Positions 8,848 to 37,800 of a DNA stretch of 64,000 bases are shown piece by piece. Numbering within the stretch: position 1 is the stretch's first letter; every line of letters begins with the position of its first letter. A program made the translations under genes and the position numbers. The notes beneath the pieces were generated by a model. It was not told where the DNA came from and did not search any database. It saw only the letters and a program-made list of their open reading frames with translations. Where the stretch lies: the NCBI GenBank assembly GCA_030386875.1, contig CM059567.1:59132020-59196019 (forward strand). The letters run 5' to 3'. This DNA is from Morinoia aosen. Taxonomy: Eukaryota; Arthropoda; Malacostraca; Amphipoda; Talitridae.

Positions 8848-10459
8848 GGATTTGTAGTCAATGTGTAGTCTGACGGGAGAGACTGGTATTTATGTCATCA
8901 GAAGGTCGTCTGACTGGAGAGCCTGGTATTTATGTCATCAGAAGGTCGTCTGACGGGAGAGCCTGGTATTTATGTCATCAGAAGGTCGTCTGACGGGAGA
9001 GACTGGGATTTATGTAATCAGAAGGTCGTCTGGCGGAAGAGACTGGGATTTATGTCATCAGAAGGTCGTCTGACGGTAGACTGGTATTTATATAATCAGA
9101 AGGTCGTCTGACGGTAAACTGGTATTTACATAATCAGAAGGTCGTCTGACGGTAAACTGGTATTTATATAATCAGAAGGTCGTCTGACGGGAGAGCCTGG
9201 TATTGATGTAATCAGAAGGCCGTCTGACGGTAGAGACTGGGATTTATGTAATCGGAAGGTCGTCTGACGGGAGAGCCTGGTATTTATGTAATCAGAAGGT
9301 CGTCTGACGGTAGAGACTGGTATTTATGTAATCAGAAGGCCGTCTGACGGTAGAGACTGGTATTTATGTAATCAGAAGGCCGTCTGACGGTAGAGACTGG
9401 TATTTATGTAATCAGAAGGTCGTCTGACGGTAGAGACTGGTATTTATGTAATCGGAAGGTCGTCTGACGGGAGAGACTGGGATTTATGTCATCAGAAAGT
9501 TGTCTGACGGTAGAGACTAGGATTTATATAATCAGAAGGTCGTCTGACGGGAGAGCCTGGTATTTATGTTATCAGAAGGTCGTCTGACGGTAGAGACTGG
9601 TATTTATGTAATCAGAAGGCCGTCTGACGGTAGAGACTGGTATTTATGTAATCAGAAGGCCGTCTGACGGTAGAGACTGGTATTTATGTAATCAGAAGGT
9701 CGTCTGACGGTAGAGACTGGTATTTATGTAATCGGAAGGTCGTCTGACGGGAGAGACTGGGATTTATGTCATCAGAAAGTCGTCTGACGGTAGAGACTAG
9801 GATTTATATAATCAGAAGGTCGTCTGACGGGAGAGCCTGGTATTTATGTTATCAGAAGGTCGTCTGACGGTAGAGACTGGTATTTATGTAATCAGAAAGT
9901 CGCCTGACTGTAGAGACTGGTATTTATGTAATCAGAAGGCCGTCTGACGGTAGAGACTGGGATTTATGTCATCAGAAGGTCGTCTGACGGGAGAGCCTGG
10001 TATTTATGTAATCAGAAGGTCGTCTGACGGTAGAGACTGGTATTTATGTAATCAGAAGGCCGTCTGACGGTAGAGACTGGTATTTATGTAATCAGAAGGC
10101 CGTCTGACGGTAGAGACTGGTATTTATGTAATCAGAAGGTCGTCTGACGGTAGAGACTGGTATTTATGTAATCGGAAGGTCGTCTGACGGGAGAGACTGG
10201 GATTTATGTCATCAGAAAGTCGTCTGACGGTAGAGACTAGGATTTATATAATCAGAAGGTCGTCTGACGGGAGAGCCTGGTATTTATGTAATCAGAAGGT
10301 CGTCTGACGGTAGAGACTGGTATTTATGTAATCAGAAGGCCGTCTGACGGTAGAGACTGGTATTTATGTAATCAGAAAGTCGTCTGACGGTAGAGGCTAG
10401 GATTTATATAATCAGCAGGTCGTCTGACGGGAGAGACTGGAATTTATAATCAGAAGTCG
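8848..10459. repeat. 40-bp tandem array (about 40 copies) with higher-order repeats
   Basis: Unit gtcgtctgacggtagagact then ggtatttatgtaatcagaag. Blocks of seven units repeat at 280 bp (for example 9421 and 9701). The longest tandem array in the window. Confidence 0.95.
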
Positions 10460-16865: not shown

Positions 16866-19800
16866 CTACCAGTGGGCAACAATAAGATCAGTATTCACGA
16901 AGAACCAACCACAAGGCTCAATATTTATGAAGGGCCAATCACAGGGCTCAATAGTCATGAAGGGCCAATCACAGGGCTCAATGTTTGTGTAGAACCAATC
17001 AAAGAGCAACCACAGCCTCAATCTTTTTGAAGAATTTATCAGTGGGCTCAATATTTAGGAAGAACCAATCAATTGGCTGAATATTTAGGAAGAACCAATC
17101 AATTGGCTGAATATTTAGGAAGAACCAATCAGTGGGCTCAATATTTAGGAAGAACCAATCAATTGGCTGAATATTTAGGAAGAACCAATCAGTGGGCTCA
17201 ATATTTAGGAAGAACCAATCAATTGGCTGAATATTTAGGAAGAACCAATCAGTGGGCTCAATATTTTTGAAGAACCAATCAGTAGGCAACACGGAATCGG
17301 TATTTATGGGAAACCAATCACTAGATAACAACCTGGCATGCTGCATGAGGCCAACGAAGTGTATTCTAACTCACATTTCATGTTCTCAAATTTTGTTATA
17401 CCTAAAATATTTTTGGACATTTCATTTGTAAATGACATCAAAGAGCATGCCTAATTAATACAAAAAGTAACTTTGAAGAATAAGTTTTGCATTAGTGTGA
17501 TAAATAAACACCCGCAGTAGAGCAAGCACTAAATAACATTTATTTATGACTTATATTCTTTCTTGGAAATTTCAGGGGTACAATTACAAAATAAACTAGC
17601 GAAGAAAAATCAATTTAAATTCCCTTTATAACTATCAATAAAATAAAGAATTCCGTGTTTACAATTGGTATCATAAGAATGTAAAATTTTATGATGAATA
17701 ATAACGCTCTTGCGTTACACGCTTTTTAATACTCAAATTTTGTGTCAACTTCGAGCTAAATATCAACGATAATCAAATGCAGCCAATTAAAAGGAATATA
17801 AATGCCTTGTAGTAGTGTCAATGTTAACAATGTAATCCGACAAAAGCTGTTGTAAAAAATTTATTAGTTCTTAAATATCACGGCAAAAATTGACAAATGT
17901 TAGTTCCAGGAACGAATCAAGTTCTCGATAAAGTAAGAGTAAAATGTAAACCATTTGCCTGGACGAAAATAATAATCCACACTCACGGCATTTTTTATTT
18001 TTTTTATTCGATGCGACATTGGATTAACAAAAAACTGCATAAGTGTAAAAATAACTAAAGTTTAGTAGTCAAACCATCGATGCGTGCTTTTATACCTTAC
18101 TAGATAACCTAGAAAATGCACGCTACAGGCAGGCAGAAGTGAAGGGTTAATTATCTGACTACAGTAACGTGCAACTAAAATAAGTGACTAATTGCAGGCA
18201 ATTTATGTTAGTGCTGCTGAGCTCAGCGCGCTGAACTAAAGAAAATGAAGAAATTGAACGGAAAGCCAGAAGTTGGCAGAACATTGGAAGGCTGGCGAAA
18301 TCAATGGGACATGAGAAAAAATTAAAACCAGTGGTCGAGTCTTTTTTGTACCTGAAAAAATTAGCATTGGATATTAAAAAATTAGTAGCGTCTCTGCGTC
18401 GGTTGAAGAACTGATAAAAAAATATATATCCTCTACAGTTGCGTTTGAAATTAGCATCAATATTTCATCGCAGACAAAAATGCGAACAGGTTTTTGAAGT
18501 CGAAAATTAATTTTTTTCTATCCCTTCATCAACAGAGCAAGTCACTGGAGCTTCATAATGCAAGTATGTTGAGCTCGTGACTTCTGAAGCCAAATTTAAC
18601 TTGGGTGTACTTTGCACATTAACCTACAACTTTCATGCTTGCGACGTGATTATAGTCTAAACCATTCATGGAACAACACTGCGTTGAATATTGAGAGCGT
18701 CATCTAATTTAGTCCGTTGGATATATAATGCGTAATCTAATATAGTCCGTTGGATATATAGTGCGTAATCTAATATAGTCCGTTGGATATATAATGCGTA
18801 ATCTAATATAGTCCGTTGGATATATAATGCGTAATCTAATATAGTCCGTTGGATATATAATGCGTAATCTAATATAGTCCGTTGGATATATAGTGCGTAA
18901 TCTAATATAGTCCTTTGGATATATAATGCGTAATCTAATATAGTCCGTTGGATATATAGTGCGTAATCTAATATAGTCCGTTGGATATATAATGCGTAAT
19001 CTAATATAGTCCTTTGGATATATAATGCGTAATCTAATATAGTCCGTTGGATATATAGTGCGTAATCTAATATAGTCCGTTGGATATATAGTGCGTAATC
19101 TAATATAGTCCTTTGGATATATAATGCGTAATCTAATATAGTCCGTTGGATATATAGTGCGTAATCTAATATAGTCCGTTGGATATATAATGCGTAATCT
19201 AATATAGTCCTTTGGATATATAATGCGTAATCTAATATAGTCCGTTGGATATATAGTGCGTAATCTAATATAGTCCGTAGAATATATAGTGCGTAATCTA
19301 ATATAGGCCGTAGAATATATAGTGCGTAATCTAATATAGTCCGTAGAATATATAGTGCGTAATCTAATATAGTCCGTAGAATATATAGTGCGTAATCTAA
19401 TATAGGCCGTAGAATATATAGTGCGTAATCTAATATAGGCCGTAGAATATATAGTGCGTAATCTAATATAGTCCGTAGAATATATAGTGCGTAATCTAAT
19501 GTAGTCCGTAGAATATTTAGTGCGTAAACTAATCTAAAGAAAACACAATCGCCAGTTCAATCCACTAAGATTGCGTATAACTCGACATTAAGTATTAAGC
19601 ATCCAGTGTGATGAGTTACCTCGACTGCGCGGCCGACGAAGCGGGTCTGAGTCAAAAGCAAGAAATCAATTGCAAGTCCAGTCACATCAACGAACCAAAT
19701 TACAAGAAAAGCCAGCACCTCACAGAAATCAATGGGGGGCGTTTAGCCTGGAACGCCATAAACCTGGTCGTAATGCAGTGAAAATTTAAATAGATCTTTC

Positions 19801-22800
19801 TCATCAATATGAGATGTACTGGCGTACAAATTGCAGATATACAGTGTATTCATACTATTATCAAATAGTAGAAGAAAATACAATGGGAACATAATTGGGA
19901 AAATTTATTATGTTTCAGTTGATTCAACGACAATTCAGGAAAAAGCATAAGAATTTTTTTCAGAGGAAAGTCTCATTTGTGAATGTCTCGAGGTATTGAG
20001 AAAAGGTTTTACGGAGGTGAGAACCGAAAGGTTTTGCTTGACAGTTCGGACCAATTTTTCGCTGAGAGTCAGTGGAGGTAAGAAGTACTGAAGAGTGAGG
20101 GCAGTCGTCACAGCGCTGAGAAGCGAAACGTATAATTTATAACTTTGTGCATGTTCAGAAATAAGAATAACTTAAAATAAGATAAAATCACAGGCAACGT
20201 CAACTCCAAGCTGTGATTGTCGAAATTTCATAAATTTTCACTTGGGAGTATATAGACGTGAATAATTTAGCACTTTTGAATGGTAGAACTAAAATGACCT
20301 AAAGACCGTTATTGAAGCTAAGAAATTCATCTTAATTTATTGGTTATTCACCAGCTGTTAATATGCGATGAGTATCGTTCAGGATCGTAAAATATATCAA
20401 AGAATATTTTTAAAATTCACGTGAATAATTCTCAGAAAAAAATCAAATTAGCAGGGTCCACATAATCAGGTAACAGCAAATTTCAATTCAAAATAAAACT
20501 TGTATAAGCCAGATCGTTAAATTTACATCGACCAGTCATCAATATTTACACGAGAATGTGGTCAGAGTCGAATCTCAAGAAGCGTCGCGGTAATCATTTG
20601 CAGTACAAAACAACGAGCAGCTTGGAGAACACGTCTTTCGCAAGCAAATAATCTTCCATACGAATGCAGGCACAGACATGAGCAAATAGAAGAACTGAAA
20701 TCAATACCAGAGTTAGCTTGCTAAATAAATCAGCTAAGATCTAACAACAAGTAGGAGTGCGTCTGTACCTCTGGGAACTTTATATTTCACCGTCACGAAA
20801 TCGTCTGCAAGAAAATATAGGCAAAGAACGTTAATATGCGGCCTGCATTATAGTTCTGTAGAACATGAGGACTGTTCAATGCAAGGTGACTTGGTGTAGG
20901 AAGGAGAAAAGCAACAGCCACTCATCACAGCTGAGTGCTAAATTAGTAAAGGAATTACATCTCAGGCGCAAATGGTGAAATGTTTAAAGTGATTTATATA
21001 AAGCCTGATAAGTAGAGCCGAGTGTTTTACACTGGAGAAGTAGGGATAAAGACATAGAAACATTTTATTCGAAAGAATGGCAGTAGGTTCTGAACGGAGG
21101 AGATTGAGATGTATGATAGAGAAATGAATAAGGTGTAGATCGCACGTTACAGTCTTAACAGCGGGTAGATCGTAGAATGTACAGTAACGTGTACATTGCA
21201 GAGCACTTAGCAGAGTGTATTTGTAATGCACACCACATACCGTTGTGTAAATAAACGTCAGGTATTGAGATCTATACACAAACAAATGAAGTTCAGTATC
21301 ACGTTCTGAGAGATGAGCTGACATTTCAGAACGTTAAAAATTCAGACAAAGCTGTAGAATCAATCATATATAATTTACAGGAATAAATTGAGCAGCAACA
21401 TATAAAAGAAAGTAGTGAAATGTTTCAGAAATACGGAGATAGGAAATTAGCTTCCGTGTCCTACAAAATATTAATGAAGCAAATGAACGAACACTAATAT
21501 ACGACACTTTCCTTACATCAAATGTACTTTCATTGTCATACGTTTAATTTTTATACACCAAAAATAGGAATGTTAGCACGCCACCTTTTTGCATCAAGAT
21601 TACGCATATTAATTCATCACTACATTCAATTAATTAATTTTATTTTTTTCAATTAAATTTTTAATCGTTTCTCAAATGAAAGGTAATTTTAAACCTGAGC
21701 ATCTATAAGTTCATATCATCAGTTACTTACATACACTTTATAAAAATTTATCGACCACCGTCATGCGACATGCTTCGCTGAAGTTTTAGAGAGCGAACAC
21801 CATTTCAGTAATTAAATGCTCTTATTTGTGAAAGTAAAATGTTCTTAATAGAAAAAAATATCAACAAGAACTAAATACGAGTCACTCGTACCTGACATTG
21901 AACCACATAACTAAACTACACGACAGAGTTCGCCACTGCGTAAAAATCTCTTAAAAGCTAATTGTAAATTACAGTACTAAACAAAATGAGGTCTTGAACT
22001 CAAAGAAAAAAAATAAAACAGAAATTATTAAAATTTAGTCTCTGGCTCGCAGAATATTAGTCTTCTGCCTCGATAAAATTACTTGGAGTTTTATTAATCT
22101 GCTTTCATCAAAAAGTCAAGCTTTCAATACAGTGGAGAATTCATCAGAAATTGAAGAAGTGCACTGCAATATTATTTTCAAGCTGTCATAATCAAAGCTC
22201 GTTATCCCAGACACGGACCCAAATGAGAAGCTTGATGTACTCGTCTCTTAAACTCTCAAGCAATCAGAAATTGTGGGATATGTATTTTTGCTTTTAAAAA
22301 TACTTTTTGATGGAACAGTTTTGGCAAAAATGAGGGAGACAACGAAAGGGTATTCGATTGCACAGCAACGAGAAGTTGTGGGGGTATGTATTTTTGCTCT
22401 TAGAAATGCCTTTTGATGAAGCTGTTTGGCAAAAATGAGGGAAAAATGAAAGGGTATTTAATTCCACCAAACAATGACTTGACACTCACCGTCTTTCACT
22501 TTGTGCAGTGAGTCGAACATCTTCCTGTACCAGTCGCCCTGGTATTCTGACTTGACTCCCTGGAGAAAAGCACGATATCAAGCTCTTAATTTGATGGAAA
22601 CTTTTCATGCAAACACAGAAGTTAAATTCACGAAATGCTTGGCAAGCGCAACGCAAGAAAAACTCCCTATGTCAAGAAGTAGGTAGCGCTTCATCAGAAG
22701 CTTAGGCGATTAACTTCTCTGCAACAACTCAAAATTAAAAAACATCGCTAATTCAATAGAAGAAGATGAGCTATTTCCTTCCGCTGTATAATGTAAGACG

Positions 22801-25800: not shown

Positions 25801-28800
25801 TAAATATATACTTGAAAATCATTGAAAAAATAGCTAGTGTAGGTGAGGTAGCTCAGCAACCCAGTTACAAGCCAAGATCATCCACGATTCTCAAATTTCC
25901 GATTTTGTGCCAATACCCAACGAGTGTATTTATACATAAAGTTTACCCATAAAAAATTCTGCATCTTACAACACTGCAGAGTTACTAGATGATAAATGGT
26001 ATTTACACTCAAATTTCATTCGAAATTACACAAATTAGCACATTTTCTAAAGGAAATTCTGTCACTGGTTACAGACGCGGGTTGTCTGGCCATGTAAGCC
26101 AGGGTCCCAACTTATTTTTCACCCCGCACTCCTGAAGAAATTTAATGCAAATCTAGCACCCCCTAAAATAAAGGTACCGACATATAGCCAATATCTTATT
26201 ATTTACCAGGACCTTTCTCGATTGCACCCCCAGGAAAATATTCTCATATCCCCTAGGAGTGCGAGCACCCTATGTTGGCAATCCCGTAATAAGCTATCGG
26301 TCCCCAATAGAACATTGCACTCACGGTCTTTAGAATGGAACACTGCACCATCACACTGTTGTAAGCTATCGGTATCCAATAGAACATTCACTCACTTCTT
26401 TTAGAATAAAACCTTACACTCGCGGCCCAGTCCCCAATAGAACATTACACTCACGGCCTCTAGAATAGAATATAGGACTCACGGTCTTCAGTGACACAGG
26501 CACCCCGTCGACGGTGGTGGGCCCCACGCCCTCGATCTTGCGTGGACCGAGCACAGCGAAGCGGCGGCTGCTGCCAGAGTCCTCGTCCTCGCTCTCATAT
26601 TCCCGCTTGATGGTGTACACTTGGTGGGTGAAGTTAAATTTGTTAACACCACAAGCCATCCATAGGAAATGAAGATGGAATCGAGTTTATAAATCACACT
26701 CCATCCAAAAGTAATGAGGATGGAGTCGAGTTTATAAAATCACAGGCCCTCTATAGGAAATGAGGATGGAGTCGAGTTTATAAAATCACACGCCATCCAT
26801 AGGAAATGATGATGGAGTCGAATCTATAAAATCACACTCCATTCAAAGGAAATGAGGATAGAGTCGAGTTCATAAAATCACACTTCATCCATAGGAAATG
26901 CGGCAAATATCCTGCTTGATGGTATACACACTTGATGGTACACATACTAACTCTATGGTGTATATAAATACTCCCGCTTGGCGGTGCACACTTGGTGGGG
27001 TGAAAACGAATGTTTTAACATCACACGCCACCCATAGGCTATGAGCTGAATTTCAAAAAAATTCTTGTGAAGTGTTGAATGAAAACACTCACAGTGCCCA
27101 AAACTTTGAGAATTATCAATTGACAGCATGAAATAAATTCCATGTCACTCATTTAACTCCATGGCAGTGGGTGTAGAATTATATACTAATGAGTAATTCC
27201 AAAATTATTACCTACAGTATTAACATTGAATACTGAGCGAGCAATCATTAACTGTATACCCAAAATCATTACCGTTTTTAAGTTAATGGGTCGCTTAAAG
27301 AAGGGAGAACAATTTCTAGTAGGGGTTTCAAGGCCTTGATATTCTAATCACTTGTTCCCTTGGTAGTTTAAGACACATGTATTTTTTCAGAGCACTATTG
27401 GCTGAAATAATTTAATAGAAAAACTTTCAACAACTGCTATGCGTTTACTCAAAAAACTGCGGGCAAGAATGTCCACTTTACGGGAGCCTAGTCAACTGCA
27501 CCATAAAAATACGAACGCTACACCATTCAATTGCTGTAAAAAATTTCTTGCGTATTCGATTCAATAGCTCTTTACTCCTGAAAATGGTGCGTCTTTACAG
27601 CTAGTAGGTTGAAAACTTCACGATGTAGTGCCTTTGAGACCCAGTCTAACTTTTTCGCCACCCAAGTAATTAAATCGCTTAGGCGGCGAAAAATATGCAT
27701 GCTCCGTCAAAAGAGTTCGACTGGGGATACCAGTTACGAATAAAAACAAAGCGACAAAAGAGGGTGCAGAATCTCGCCGTAGGAATAGCCTTACGTTTGT
27801 CAGAAGGTTTGTAGAAGGAAGAGTCATCCCCTTGCAGGTACTCGGGACGTTTGCTGGGGATGTGACCCTCTGTGTGGGACACACGCGGTCAGTCAAGCGA
27901 AGCAGGGACAACGTCATGCCATTTTAGGGTAAAAAATGTACAATAGAATACGGAAATGAGATTTCGGTTGGCGAAATCTCCAGTACAAGTGTTAAGTGAA
28001 TGGATGCAAACAGGTTGAGGCTGGAGAATATATGCACACCTGTTTATAAACACGAGCAACATGGAGTATTGAAGAAAATTTGCACCTGTTTGGATTCTAA
28101 GTTATTTGATATTTGTGCTAAAGAATATCGTTGCCTGAATAATATTATCAGAAAAGGGTGCTGATTGAAATGATCAAATGACCATTGTGATGCTTTAGAA
28201 CTATTAAGTACATCCTAACCTCGTAACCGAGAAGATAATTTGGTTGGAAATCATTCGATGAATAGAAAATTGGTCTACTTGAAAAAAATGCTTTAACCGC
28301 TGCAAATCACAAGTGGAGATTTGTTTATCCCAAATGTATTAGCGCATACACAGGTGAAAATATCGCAAAACCCGGACTTGTATCAAATCACGGTCTTCCC
28401 TGTCCAAAGTTTGATGATGAACTCCGGGTGGGCTCTCCAAATGAAAAATAAAGCATGCTAAGCTTCTGAAATACATCTTGAACAGGCTTTCTTGCGAAGT
28501 ATTTCCAATTTTACGACGGATAGCCAAGATATAAACTGATAAATTTGTGCCCCCAAATGTAATCTGGTGAGAACTAGACACTACCAGTACTTGCATGCCG
28601 GTAATATTTTCAACCCACGAGGAACAGCGATCTCCCCGAACAAAAATCATCACCGAAAAATATCATCGAGTCCACTAGTGGAGTGGGAGAAGTGCCAGTA
28701 CGAAATGATGTTAAAAATTATCAGTTGAAGCAGGTAACACTTCAAATTGTGTATGCTCAAAAATGAAGTGCGCCTCACATGCGGGAGGGAACGATCGCTT

Positions 28801-31800: not shown

Positions 31801-34800
31801 AAATTGGTCGAGTTTTATCATGCACTGCTTCTCAAGGTAATACAAATGTCCCAAGTTGATGGTTATTTGAAGAAAGAAGATCCTTGCGTTCAAAGCTCCT
31901 CCAAAATTTCGAAGCCAAAATATTGCACTCAAATGGACTTGAATCTTTATTGTGAATTTATGCAGTTGTCGAGTAAATTGTACTTGCAATTAAATGAGAT
32001 GGGAAATTTTTTATTGCTACTGTAGTCAAACCCTCTCATGGAAAATGAATTTATTGATGTATTTAAGTACACAAATTAGTATTGGTTGCAAATAAAATCA
32101 TGAAGAATAAATTCATACTATTAATCGCTGACACTTCCGAATAATTTTGACGAGAAAATTTTGCTAAAACTTGAAAGAAAACAAAAAATAATTTAAATAC
32201 TAAATAATACATTGATAATTAAATCATTAACGTTTTAAATAAGATGTAAGCAACAGGGATTTTACCATTAAATGAACAGCACGAACCCTAGAGCAATCCA
32301 GTGTGCAAAGTAGAGGAAAGTTCGTAATTATCCACACGGGAAAGCTTTATTTTTTAAATGTGGTTACCCCTGCAATGCGAGTATGAACTAAAAAACGTTT
32401 CTACATAGTTGCCAGCAAAGCAACATTCAAATCTATGCCCTCTAGTCTGCGCGTTTTTTTTTTCCTAATAGCGATCAGTACGGAAAAGTGGTTGAGATGC
32501 AAGCCTGATTTCAAACAAATTAAACCTTCGTTAGGTTATGACCGAAATGGGGCGATCGATTTACGTTTATTTACAATGTTCTTGTCTAACGGGTGATCGT
32601 ACCGAGAGTTATATGATGGTCGCATATGCGGTAAAAAAAACGTTTACACTGAAAATTGGGAATAAACTATTGTGGGTCACGTAAAAAGCCCTTTTAGTCA
32701 CAAATGATTACTTTCTGCTTGCCCTAGCTCTGAAAAAATCTCTTACCTCTGATAAACTCTTGAGAAACCATCGATAAACACAAGCCTTTACTCGAAATAA
32801 ATTACGAAACCAATCCCTTTACTAGAAGGGGACGATACTTCTAGTAATTGAACAGAAAAAATGAAGTCCATGAAGTCCAGTGAAGTCCATTCAAAATACC
32901 CTCAAACACATTAATTGATTCTCAAAGTCGACTACAGTGAACACTACGTACCGCGCTTCTTCTGCAGGAGTGTGACGGTCGGGTTCTGGGAGCGTGGCAG
33001 CGAGGACTTGAACTGCTCCGCCTCGCGGTCCTTCCAGGCGAAGCTCTCCTCCGGCCGCGGGGCCGCCACATGCTCCTGTGTGGTGCGATATTGCACTGAA
33101 AAACTCTTACAAACGTCAAATTTCATGTGAGGTTGCTTAAAACCTTTGATGACCATTTCATACTATATGTTAGTTGTTTGGCAGGGAAGCCACATGCTAC
33201 GGCGTGGTGCGACACGGCACTCAACCGTTCTTACAGATGTCAACTATCGGGATACATCCAAAAATGAAATTGGAAATATAATATCAAATATGTAAGGTTG
33301 CTTGAATGGACATTTCATACATTTCCCTCGACAGTTCTTCTAAACATCAATTGTCCTGTGCGGTTGCTTAAAACCTTATATGACCGTATCCTACTATAGG
33401 TTAGTTTTTTGGCAGGGAAGCCACATGCTCCCGCGTGGTGTGGCACTGCACTCAACAGTTCTTACAGACGCCAAATATCATGTGAAGTTGCTTAAATTAC
33501 CATTTCATGAAACATTTCACTGAAAAATTCTACCCAAAGTCAACTATCGGGATATATCCAAACATTCCAACTAATCAATTGGAAATATCATATCAAATAT
33601 CATGTAAGGTTGCTTGAATAACTATGGCAAACTAAGTTGTTTGGCTGTGAAGCCAGATTCTTTTATGTGATGCAACATTACACTGACAAATTCTTCAAAA
33701 TAGCACGGAAAAAACACTTTTAGTGACACAGCAACCACTGAAATTCCATCAAAATTCATTGCTTCCGAACCATCAACGCAGCTCGAGGCAAAAACCGTGA
33801 TTGTCACCCTTCTAATACAAAGTAATCGTTACGGTCATCACAGGCACTGCAAAAATGCGCTTACGCTGAAGAAGTGGCCATTTATTGTGCTGATCAACAG
33901 GAATGCCGTCTATTATCCTGTCACCAAAGCAATTTGAAGTCGTTATCGGAATTGCAAAAATGCAGCTTTTGTACGCCATGATTAGCATCACCACAGCAGC
34001 TCGCGGGACACAAAGTGTGCAAATGAAGCTCAACAAACGAATTTTTTCGTTGACAAAAGTGCCGAGCTTTACAGAATACGCAAGTCAAACGAGAACGTCG
34101 TTCATTTTACCTAACATGATCCCTAATCAGGCAGGAATGTGACAGTTCAAAGGCTTCCAGAATCGCAGATCCATCCGCCGTAAAACGGCGACCACAAAGT
34201 TGCCGAAACACGTCATGTAGCTTCTAATTTTCATGACAATTTTGTCTGGTTACAATAAAAGCAATATGATACACCAGTAAATTTTTAAATAAATTACATT
34301 ATTGCGTAGATTTTCATATAAATTTTGAACTGAAGTACACCAAATGACTTATGTTCTCTTTGCCCTTTGATATTTGCTGAAAGTCCTCACTCGAAAAAAT
34401 CATTTTTACATTAATTCAATACGATGCCTCTCTCTGTATCTAATACGTGCACGTGGATGAACATATTGAGCGTTCAAGAATGAACTCAGGATCTTTTAAC
34501 CAATTCAAGAACATAAACTGAGATTTAAATAGAAAAGGAACATTTTGTGGCGTTCCTGAGTTCTTAGGATATCGAAAAAAGTGTATTTTGAATGGAGCAT
34601 CAGGTTATTTTACATTTTCCCCTTTGACAGTCGAGGTACGGTTACGACAAAAGAAGTTTCCACAAGAATTTAATAACCTTGGATTTGAGAGCAATGCATG
34701 AATTTACCTTAATCTGTCTTGGGTTCATTTCTTCTTCATCGCTGGATAATTTAAAAAAATATCTTTTACAGGATTGAAAAGTTAACTGACTTCAAACGCA

Positions 34801-37800
34801 GTTTTGCCTCACAAGAAATGCTCGCTGAAAATAACATTACAAGCTTGTTCACATTGTTACGCTGCCTGCACTTCGCATAAATTCAAATTTTCAACATTCA
34901 GCAATGCGCACTAATAAATTGTCCACTCTGTTAACTGCATAAAAATGAATTGTCTACACTCTACACCGCGTATAAATAAACTGTCTACGCTCTACACCGC
35001 GTATAAATTCAAATAGTGAACACTACACTGCGTATAAATTCAAATAGTGAACACTAAACTGCGTATAAATTCAAATAGTGAACACTAAACTGCGTATAAA
35101 TAAAGTGTCTCCACTCTACAGTGCGCGTAAATAAACGGACTACATTCTATGTACACTGCGTATAAATAAAGAGTCTACACTATACTGTGCGTGTAAGCAC
35201 TGTCTACACTCTACACAGCACACGTTCAACACTCAATGCAAACTCCACCTCAGTCGATGAACGTCTTATCAGCTCATGAGCGTGCTTTTACAATGTTATC
35301 TGAGCTGCAGGAACATCACTGCAGTTATCTGAGCTGCAGGAACATCAGTGCAGTTATCTGTGCTGCAGGAACATCACTGCAGTTATCTGAGCTGCAGGAA
35401 CATCACTGCAGTTATCTGAGCTGCAGGAACATCACTGCAGTTATCTGAGCTGCAGGAACATCACTGCAGTTATCTGAGCTGCAGGAACATCACTGCAGTT
35501 ATCTGAGCTGCAGGAACATCACTGCAGTTATCTGAGCTGCAGGAACATCCCTGCAGTTATCTGAGCTGCAGGAACATCACTGTAGTTATCTGAGCTGCAG
35601 GAACATCACTGTAGTAATATGAGCTGCAGGAACATCACTGCAGTTATCTGAGCTGCAGGAACATCACTGTAGTTATCTGAGCTGCAGGAACATCACTGCA
35701 GTTATCTGAGCTGCAGGAACATCACTGCAGTTATCTGAGCTGCAGGAACATCACTGCAGTTATCTGAGCTGCAGGAACATCACTGCAGTTATCTGAGCTG
35801 CAGGAACATCACTGCAGTTATCTGAGCTGCAGGAACATCACTGCAGTTATCTGAGCTGCAGGAACATCACTGCAGTTATCTGAGCTGCAGGAACATCACT
35901 GTAGTTATCTGAGCTGCAGGAACATCACTGCAGTTATCTGAGCTGCAGGAACATCACTGCATTTATCTGAGCTGCAGGAACATCACTGCAGTTATCTGAG
36001 CTGCAGGAACATCAGTGCAGTTATCTGATCTGCAGGAACATCACTGTAGTTATCTGAGCTGCAGGAACATCACTGTAGTTATCTGAGCTGCAGGAACATC
36101 ACTGCAGTTATCTGAGCTGCAGGAACATCACTGCAGTTATCTGAGCTGCAGGAACATCACTGCAGTTATCTGAGCTGCAGGAACATCACTGCAGTTATCT
36201 GAGCTGCAGGAACAACACTGCAGTTATCTGAGCTGCAGGAACATCACTGCAGTTATCTGAGCTGAAGGAACATCACTGCAGTTATCTGAGCTGCAGAAAT
36301 ATCACTGCAGTTATCTGAGCTGCAGGAACATCACTGCAGTTATCTGAGCTGCAGGAACATCACTGCAGTTATCTGAGCTGCAGGAACATCACTGCAGTTA
36401 TCTGAGCTGCAGGAACATCACTGCAGTTATCTGAGCTGCAGGAACATCACTGCAGTTATCTGAGCTGCAGGAACATCACTGCAGTTATCTGAGCTGCAGG
36501 AACATCACTGCAGTTATCTGAGCTGCAGGAACATCACTGCAGTTATCTGAGCTGCAGGAACATCACTGCAGTTATCTGAGCTGCAGGAACATCAGTGCAG
36601 TTATCTGAGCTGCAGGAACATTATGCAGTTATCTGAGCTGCAGGAACATCACTGCTAGATTAAAATAGACAGCAATTACCATCAATCTACCTGTGAAAAA
36701 TGAACATAATAAAAACATTCAAGCGTGGTCCTCATTTCATGCTTCCGAAAACGCGTTTTGAAAAATTATGCAAGGAACTTTTGAAGTACAGTAGTGTTTC
36801 GACACCGTTTTTCCATGTTCCCGTCAACGTGTTTTGAAAAATTATGCAATAGAACATTTGAAGTACAGTAGTGTTCCGACATCCTTTTTCCATTTTCCTG
36901 TCAAGGTGTTTTGTAAAATTATGCAAGGAAAAATATCAATAGAGTGAAGTTGGGACATTTTCCTTTTCCATGCTACCGTCAACGTGTTTTAAAAATTACA
37001 CGAGGAACCTCACAAGAACAGTAAAGTTCGGACACATTCCTTTAACATGCTACCGTCAACGGGTTTTCCAACATAGAACAAAAACCTCACAGTAATTATT
37101 GACAAAGAAGTTAACAATTGTAGTAGACAGGGTACCTGATCCATGCTACCCTCTAAGACGTTTTGAAAAATTGAACAAAAACCTTAGTAATTATTGAGAG
37201 AGAAGTTCACACTGCAGGTAGCCAAGATACCTGAGAAGGCCTGCGCCGCAGCGTGGAGCCGTCGTATGCCACCTTCCTGTACTCCTTCCTGCCCAGCGAC
37301 GGGCTCGCCGACCCAGCTGTAAGGGGACCACACTTCTTTAATATCATCAGCAATTGAAATAAAATGTGTCAGCACCCTAATTTCATCAGTGATTAGAATA
37401 TAGCGGTATCCTAATTTTAACATTAATTAACATAGAATACGAAACAAAACATTTCCATTAGGATAGAATATATATAATGCGGCCGCCCCCTAATTTCAAC
37501 AGTAATTATTAAAGAATGTGGCGGCACCCTACCTCTAACACCAATAACATTTTTCCATTTTTTTCAAAATTTTTGGGATCAACAAAGACAAATTCAATTT
37601 TTTTGACCCAAGCTTTCGGCTAGATTAGCTCTAGCCGTCATCAGGGGAACGATGTATTTTTAAACAAAACCTCTTATGGTATCCGCGTGTATCTAGTATA
37701 CAAAACAATTTTTTAAATTTTTACATGCAAGCCGAAAATCATTGATCAAGGGCGACTGATGAGCAAAGGAAGAAACTGCGGGGGGACATCAAGGTGACGA

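Follow-up and report, generated by a model that had tools for sequence, protein, structure and literature searches.

Both borders of a small exon are duplicated within a minisatellite-rich stretch of an arthropod genome

Both borders of one small internal exon in Morinoia aosen lie in local direct repeats: about 77 bp across its acceptor recur in the upstream intron, and its donor is one unit of a decayed 28-bp array that continues into the downstream intron. The structure is real; where local duplications are this dense it is to be expected, and its kind has already been described. We put at roughly 85% the probability that these repeats arose as by-products where local tandem duplication is very active, in a minisatellite-rich part of the genome; a process directed at exon borders is not needed. 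The window, here and below, is the whole stretch of DNA analysed (64,000 nt), and positions are those of the window unless a contig or locus is named.

Seven exons of the host gene were placed in the window, all on the minus strand, by combining open reading frames with splice signals and phase:

62066-60380, minus strand: exon 1
42121-42002, minus strand: exon 2
37316-37231, minus strand: exon 3
33075-32952, minus strand: exon 4 (alternative start 33095)
26619-26483, minus strand: exon 5, small internal exon of 137 nt with both borders repeated; acceptor AG at 26620-26621, donor GTGAGT at 26477-26482
22559-22490, minus strand: exon 6
16865-16730, minus strand: exon 7

The frame of exon 5 is unbroken, and the exon starts in phase 1, matching the end of the preceding exon (CGC G followed by GTACGT, at 32952). 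Joined exons 5 and 6 matched the Sorb (SoHo) domain PF02208 at 17.2 bits (E 0.004); because this falls below the Pfam cut-off of 27, the gene can only provisionally be called CAP/SORBS-like. Exons taken singly gave no useful Pfam match, and a crude motif search found no SH3 motifs on the minus strand of the surrounding 264 kb, beyond which the gene may extend.

Local alignment, a BLAST scan and shuffles were used to define the repeat at the acceptor border, around which the following features lie:

26597-26672, minus strand: original acceptor border, made up of 53 bp of intron, with the acceptor, and the first 23 bp of the exon
26968-27044, minus strand: acceptor-border copy in the upstream intron, AG intact
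26907-26938, minus strand: partial copy of the exon start, overlapping a 16-bp tandem repeat (26915-26948)
26650-26900, unstranded: 46-bp minisatellite of 5.5 copies between both acceptor copies, its start overlapping the original border copy

An earlier, sequence-only reading had reported an acceptor-spanning repeat of about 70 bp at 26969-27040 with about 80% identity. Consistently with this report, 26597-26672 and 26968-27044 aligned with a score of 72, agreeing in 61 of 77 columns, the match between 26599-26668 and 26969-27040 on which the claim depended is present in that alignment, and the BLAST scan returned the pair with a score of 70 over 77 columns (79%). The repeat does contain coding sequence, as had been proposed, over 23 bp rather than about 20. 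Copied exon bases (19/23 identical) have changed about as much as copied intron bases (42/54), with 4/23 and 12/54 columns differing. The highest score reached in 2000 dinucleotide shuffles of 26906-27405 was 31, which rules out a chance match. In gene orientation, the upstream intron runs from the 26968-27044 copy through the partial copy at 26907-26938 and the 46-bp array to the original acceptor border; the array had been described as lying between the acceptor copies, and it is there, but it starts inside the first border copy and not after it.

The donor side is a decayed 28-bp repeat of six units:

26464-26491, minus strand: original donor border, the last 9 bp of the exon, GTGAGT and 13 bp of intron
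26436-26463, minus strand: 28-bp copy, GTGAGT
26405-26425, minus strand: decayed copy, GCGAGT
26378-26401, minus strand: decayed copy, GTGAGT intact
26334-26354, minus strand: weak donor-like copy, GTGATG, possibly due to chance
26306-26333, minus strand: 28-bp copy, GTGAGT

Thus GTGAGT stands in four of the six units (original counted), with one GCGAGT and one GTGATG; the units at 26464-26491 and 26436-26463 are head to tail and the others are spaced. The best donor-side match scored 36 against a maximum of 25 in 2000 shuffles, a control that applies to the best match only. Under another scoring, the two weakest units reached 30 (26405-26425) and 21 (26334-26354), and the latter may be a chance resemblance. 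With both repeats beating 2000 shuffles, the claim that the two borders of one small exon are duplicated stands. It had also been said that they were amplified separately: the units do differ between the sides, and, because they differ (28 bp at the donor; a block of ~77 bp and a 46-bp array at the acceptor) and belong to no common repeat family, the two sides probably arose as separate events.

Two other origins were considered and rejected. In a search of the 1.99-Gb genome (29 contigs) that skips common words and scores only the best candidates, neither the acceptor block nor the donor array matched anything but itself, which speaks against a dispersed repeat or transposon. An inverted-repeat origin was dismissed, local inverted repeats covering only 2-3% of the sequence and the border copies being direct.

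Local direct repeats (matches within 1.5 kb scoring at least 36) cover 25.4% of the window and 21.3% of the 264 kb around it, the corresponding values for inverted repeats being 2.6% and 1.9%; a single dinucleotide shuffle of the full window had a direct-repeat share of 0.0000. When a junction was counted as covered if one match spanned at least 4 nt on both sides of it, 4 of the 14 junctions of the target gene were covered; the proportion of positions covered predicts 3.47 (P 0.48, circular shifts). An exon with both junctions covered was found in 73% of random shifts in the window, a figure that includes cases in which a single long array covers a whole small exon; the two junctions of exon 5 are not covered by one long array.

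The sample was enlarged with 12 myosin loci, in which local direct repeats span 0 to 45% of the sequence. The myosin search gave 79 matches, 51 of them in the regions used; two of the loci, ~1 kb apart on contig C1, probably belong to a single gene. The C1 muscle gene's alternative exons, which account for six of the 51 matches, were excluded because they are duplicated as whole exons, and five of the 90 ends of the remaining 45 were dropped (four at domain-model ends, one without a clear donor), leaving 85 junctions, of which 69 were placed by a simple splice-site score, three being corrected by eye, and 16 were read from sequence. No local direct repeat reaches the scan threshold in the loci on C14, C17 and C20, so that the exact place of poorly scored junctions on C14 and C17 is immaterial. 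Four of the 85 myosin junctions were covered, two on C11 (27529913 and 27527111) and two on C9 (53913657 and 53918740). Pooled over the 13 loci, one window and 12 myosin loci, 8 of 99 junctions were covered against ~12.3 expected (z -1.3, the sum being approximated as normal), and only three genes contain the covered junctions. There is no excess of repeats at exon borders, and if anything there are fewer; the earlier suggestion of a mechanism aimed at such borders thus finds no enrichment behind it.

The target gene itself has further covered borders, at donor 37231 and acceptor 33075:

33057-33160, minus strand: acceptor border of exon 33075-32952 (or start 33095), with a duplicate at 33412-33519 (79%)
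36735-37234, minus strand: array of ~77-bp units at exon 37316-37231, reaching 4 bp into the exon

The first 63 bp of the border at 33057-33160 recur once more at 33181-33243 (75%). Both acceptor candidates of this fourth exon, 33075 and 33095, lie inside the repeat; as judged by eye, its copies have lost the AG if the exon starts at 33075 and have kept it if the start is 33095. At the third exon, 36801-37139 and 36878-37234 are 69% identical, and TCAG followed by GTA at the border is repeated by eye in the next unit. Other arrays stop close to a border: 30-bp units at 16888-17287, upstream of exon 16865-16730, and ~105-bp units at 22259-22467, downstream of exon 22559-22490, each end ~22 bp short of the splice site. 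Large minisatellites in or beside the introns of the gene were also seen at 8868-10456 (40 bp x 40), 35295-36655 (29 bp x 47) and 18682-19533 (33 bp x 26).

Myosin genes provided additional examples, the most regular of which is an array on C11:

L030:7058-7532 (G000:C11): 42-bp array of 11.6 copies with 89% matches, each unit made of the last 18 bp of the exon, GTTAGT and 18 bp of intron

GTTAGT is present in 10 full units and in the last partial unit, and absent from two internal 15-bp fragments. The donor hexamer did not differ significantly from the rest of the unit in its changes (0/60 vs 14/360, P 0.24). One unit equals 14 codons, and on reading in frame the first stop comes in the sixth unit. 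On C9, where both covered junctions are donors, 31 bp of exon end together with the donor reappear 91 bp further downstream at 87%, and at 53918711-53918938 (locus L032) the intron carries a copy of an exon end from which the donor has been deleted. A different kind of duplication was observed at C1:35644596-35648320 (L022), where a muscle-type myosin heavy chain gene has one exon in six tandem versions (Pfam positions ~376-436), as in clusters of mutually exclusive exons. Joined muscle-myosin exons scored 386 to 359 bits against the five best chains, which from their entry codes we take to be insect and tarantula myosins, and 294 bits against the next. Elsewhere in the genome, a 35-base pattern of TTAGG, the telomere repeat of most arthropods, matched 6646 times in forward and 8599 times in reverse orientation, overlaps counted, and the reversed control had 0 matches; places among the matches listed are C1, inside the contig, and C2 from ~18 kb. 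The myosin scores and the TTAGG counts both point to an arthropod as the most likely host.

If local tandem duplication is the cause, one duplication, by slippage of the polymerase, unequal exchange or break repair, would have had an end point within the exon, 23 bp from its 5' end, and a separate 28-bp duplication one 9 bp from its 3' end, and the extra copies, because they are intronic and spliced out, would persist and decay neutrally, the original splice sites presumably being those in use. Were the upstream acceptor copy used, it would add 371 nt and meet a stop after 11 codons; the donor copies at +28, +59, +128 and +158 would shift the frame, and that at +87 lies after a stop. Productive use of the copied sites is unlikely from these predicted products and, since the copies checked shift the frame or meet a stop, the sites at this exon are probably bystanders. 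It is possible that they serve regulated dead-end splicing. Three of the five added donor units have a perfect GTGAGT and the acceptor copy has its AG, which is evidence against bystanders.

The same signals would be expected if copied donors and acceptors had been retained to tune the splicing of the exon, acting as decoy or poison sites, and for this one can cite GTGAGT in four of six donor units with the original counted, the AG of the acceptor copy, GTTAGT in all 10 full units and the last partial unit on C11 and, with a true start at 33095, the AG seen by eye in the copies at the fourth exon. We nevertheless give this little credence: the C11 donor hexamer is not significantly better conserved than the rest of its unit, one C9 donor copy has been lost, the sampled junctions are not enriched in repeats and, with a start at 33075, the fourth-exon copies are by eye without AG. 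Still less probable is that the whole exon was once duplicated in tandem, in the manner of mutually exclusive exons, and that the duplicate then lost its middle and left the copies as remnants. The six-version exon of the muscle myosin gene provides a precedent in this genome, but here the upstream copy is exon-like for 23 bp only and then gives way to other short repeats, while the copies downstream, which recur in a 28-bp unit, have no more than 9 exon bases each. Reliance on a single assembly leaves room for an artefact, which we consider very improbable, since the copies differ too much (~10-30%) for the false duplication of one stretch. Local tandem duplication, with the copies as by-products, is thus the reading we retain.

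The in-frame C11 myosin array is a more interesting object than the copies at the target exon. Each of its units adds 14 in-frame codons and a donor, so that alternative donor use could lengthen the protein stepwise, 14 codons per unit. A broader view, in which minisatellites at exon borders are common in this arthropod lineage and give rise to new splice variants, and in which the length of the C11 array becomes protein length and varies between alleles, is speculative and seems to us rather unlikely. Genes of this kind would be natural test cases for how the spliceosome chooses among identical donors.

Among known systems, the target exon recalls the 'mirages' of amphioxus, for which Canestro 2002 is reportedly the original paper. 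In PMC3087553 and PMC3902484, mirages are minisatellites spanning an exon-intron border on its 5' or 3' side, in Adh3 and the globin genes BflGb6 and BflGb9, with PGBD5 and troponin C also mentioned; the units cited are of 10-72 and 150-160 bp, many, not all, carry AG/GT signals, and RT-PCR suggested normal splicing. Length that is unstable between alleles or in somatic cells is a further mark of a mirage. The repeats at our exon are alike in spanning the exon-intron boundary, in having head-to-tail units on the donor side and in carrying splice signals in many, not all, units (GTGAGT in 4/6, AG in the copy at 26968); the acceptor side, with one copy 371 bp off and a partial copy, is less clearly tandem. 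They differ in their arthropod host, in affecting both borders of one exon with different units, and in the second array between the acceptor copies. The sequence-only reading knew of no common mechanism for such borders; border duplications had already been described (PMC3087553; see also PMC2812944).

PMC2812944 concerns human paralogs in segmental duplications, in which internal tandem repeats at exon-intron boundaries (mean unit 30 bp) vary between paralogs and are linked with possible new introns; minisatellites can sit at an exon-intron boundary there as here, with the difference that none forms a new intron in our gene. Likewise, in the Rogers model (PMC3443670), introns are gained by tandem genomic duplication when an exonic AGGT is copied and yields a new donor and acceptor. 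Local duplication copies splice signals in both cases, whereas our copies lie inside existing introns, the exon frame is unbroken, and no duplicated exonic AGGT serves as a new donor or acceptor. Relative to ordinary intronic minisatellites, the unit sizes resemble those of other arrays in the window, and what sets the border repeats apart is that they happen to take in a splice site and a small number of exon bases. A literature search of openly licensed papers recognised no arthropod exon-border minisatellite, the cases it showed being from lancelets and human paralogs. Our data thus extend exon-border minisatellites to an arthropod, and what is new beside those cases is this host, a small-sample rate (8/99 junctions inside a local direct repeat) and a myosin array that runs in frame.
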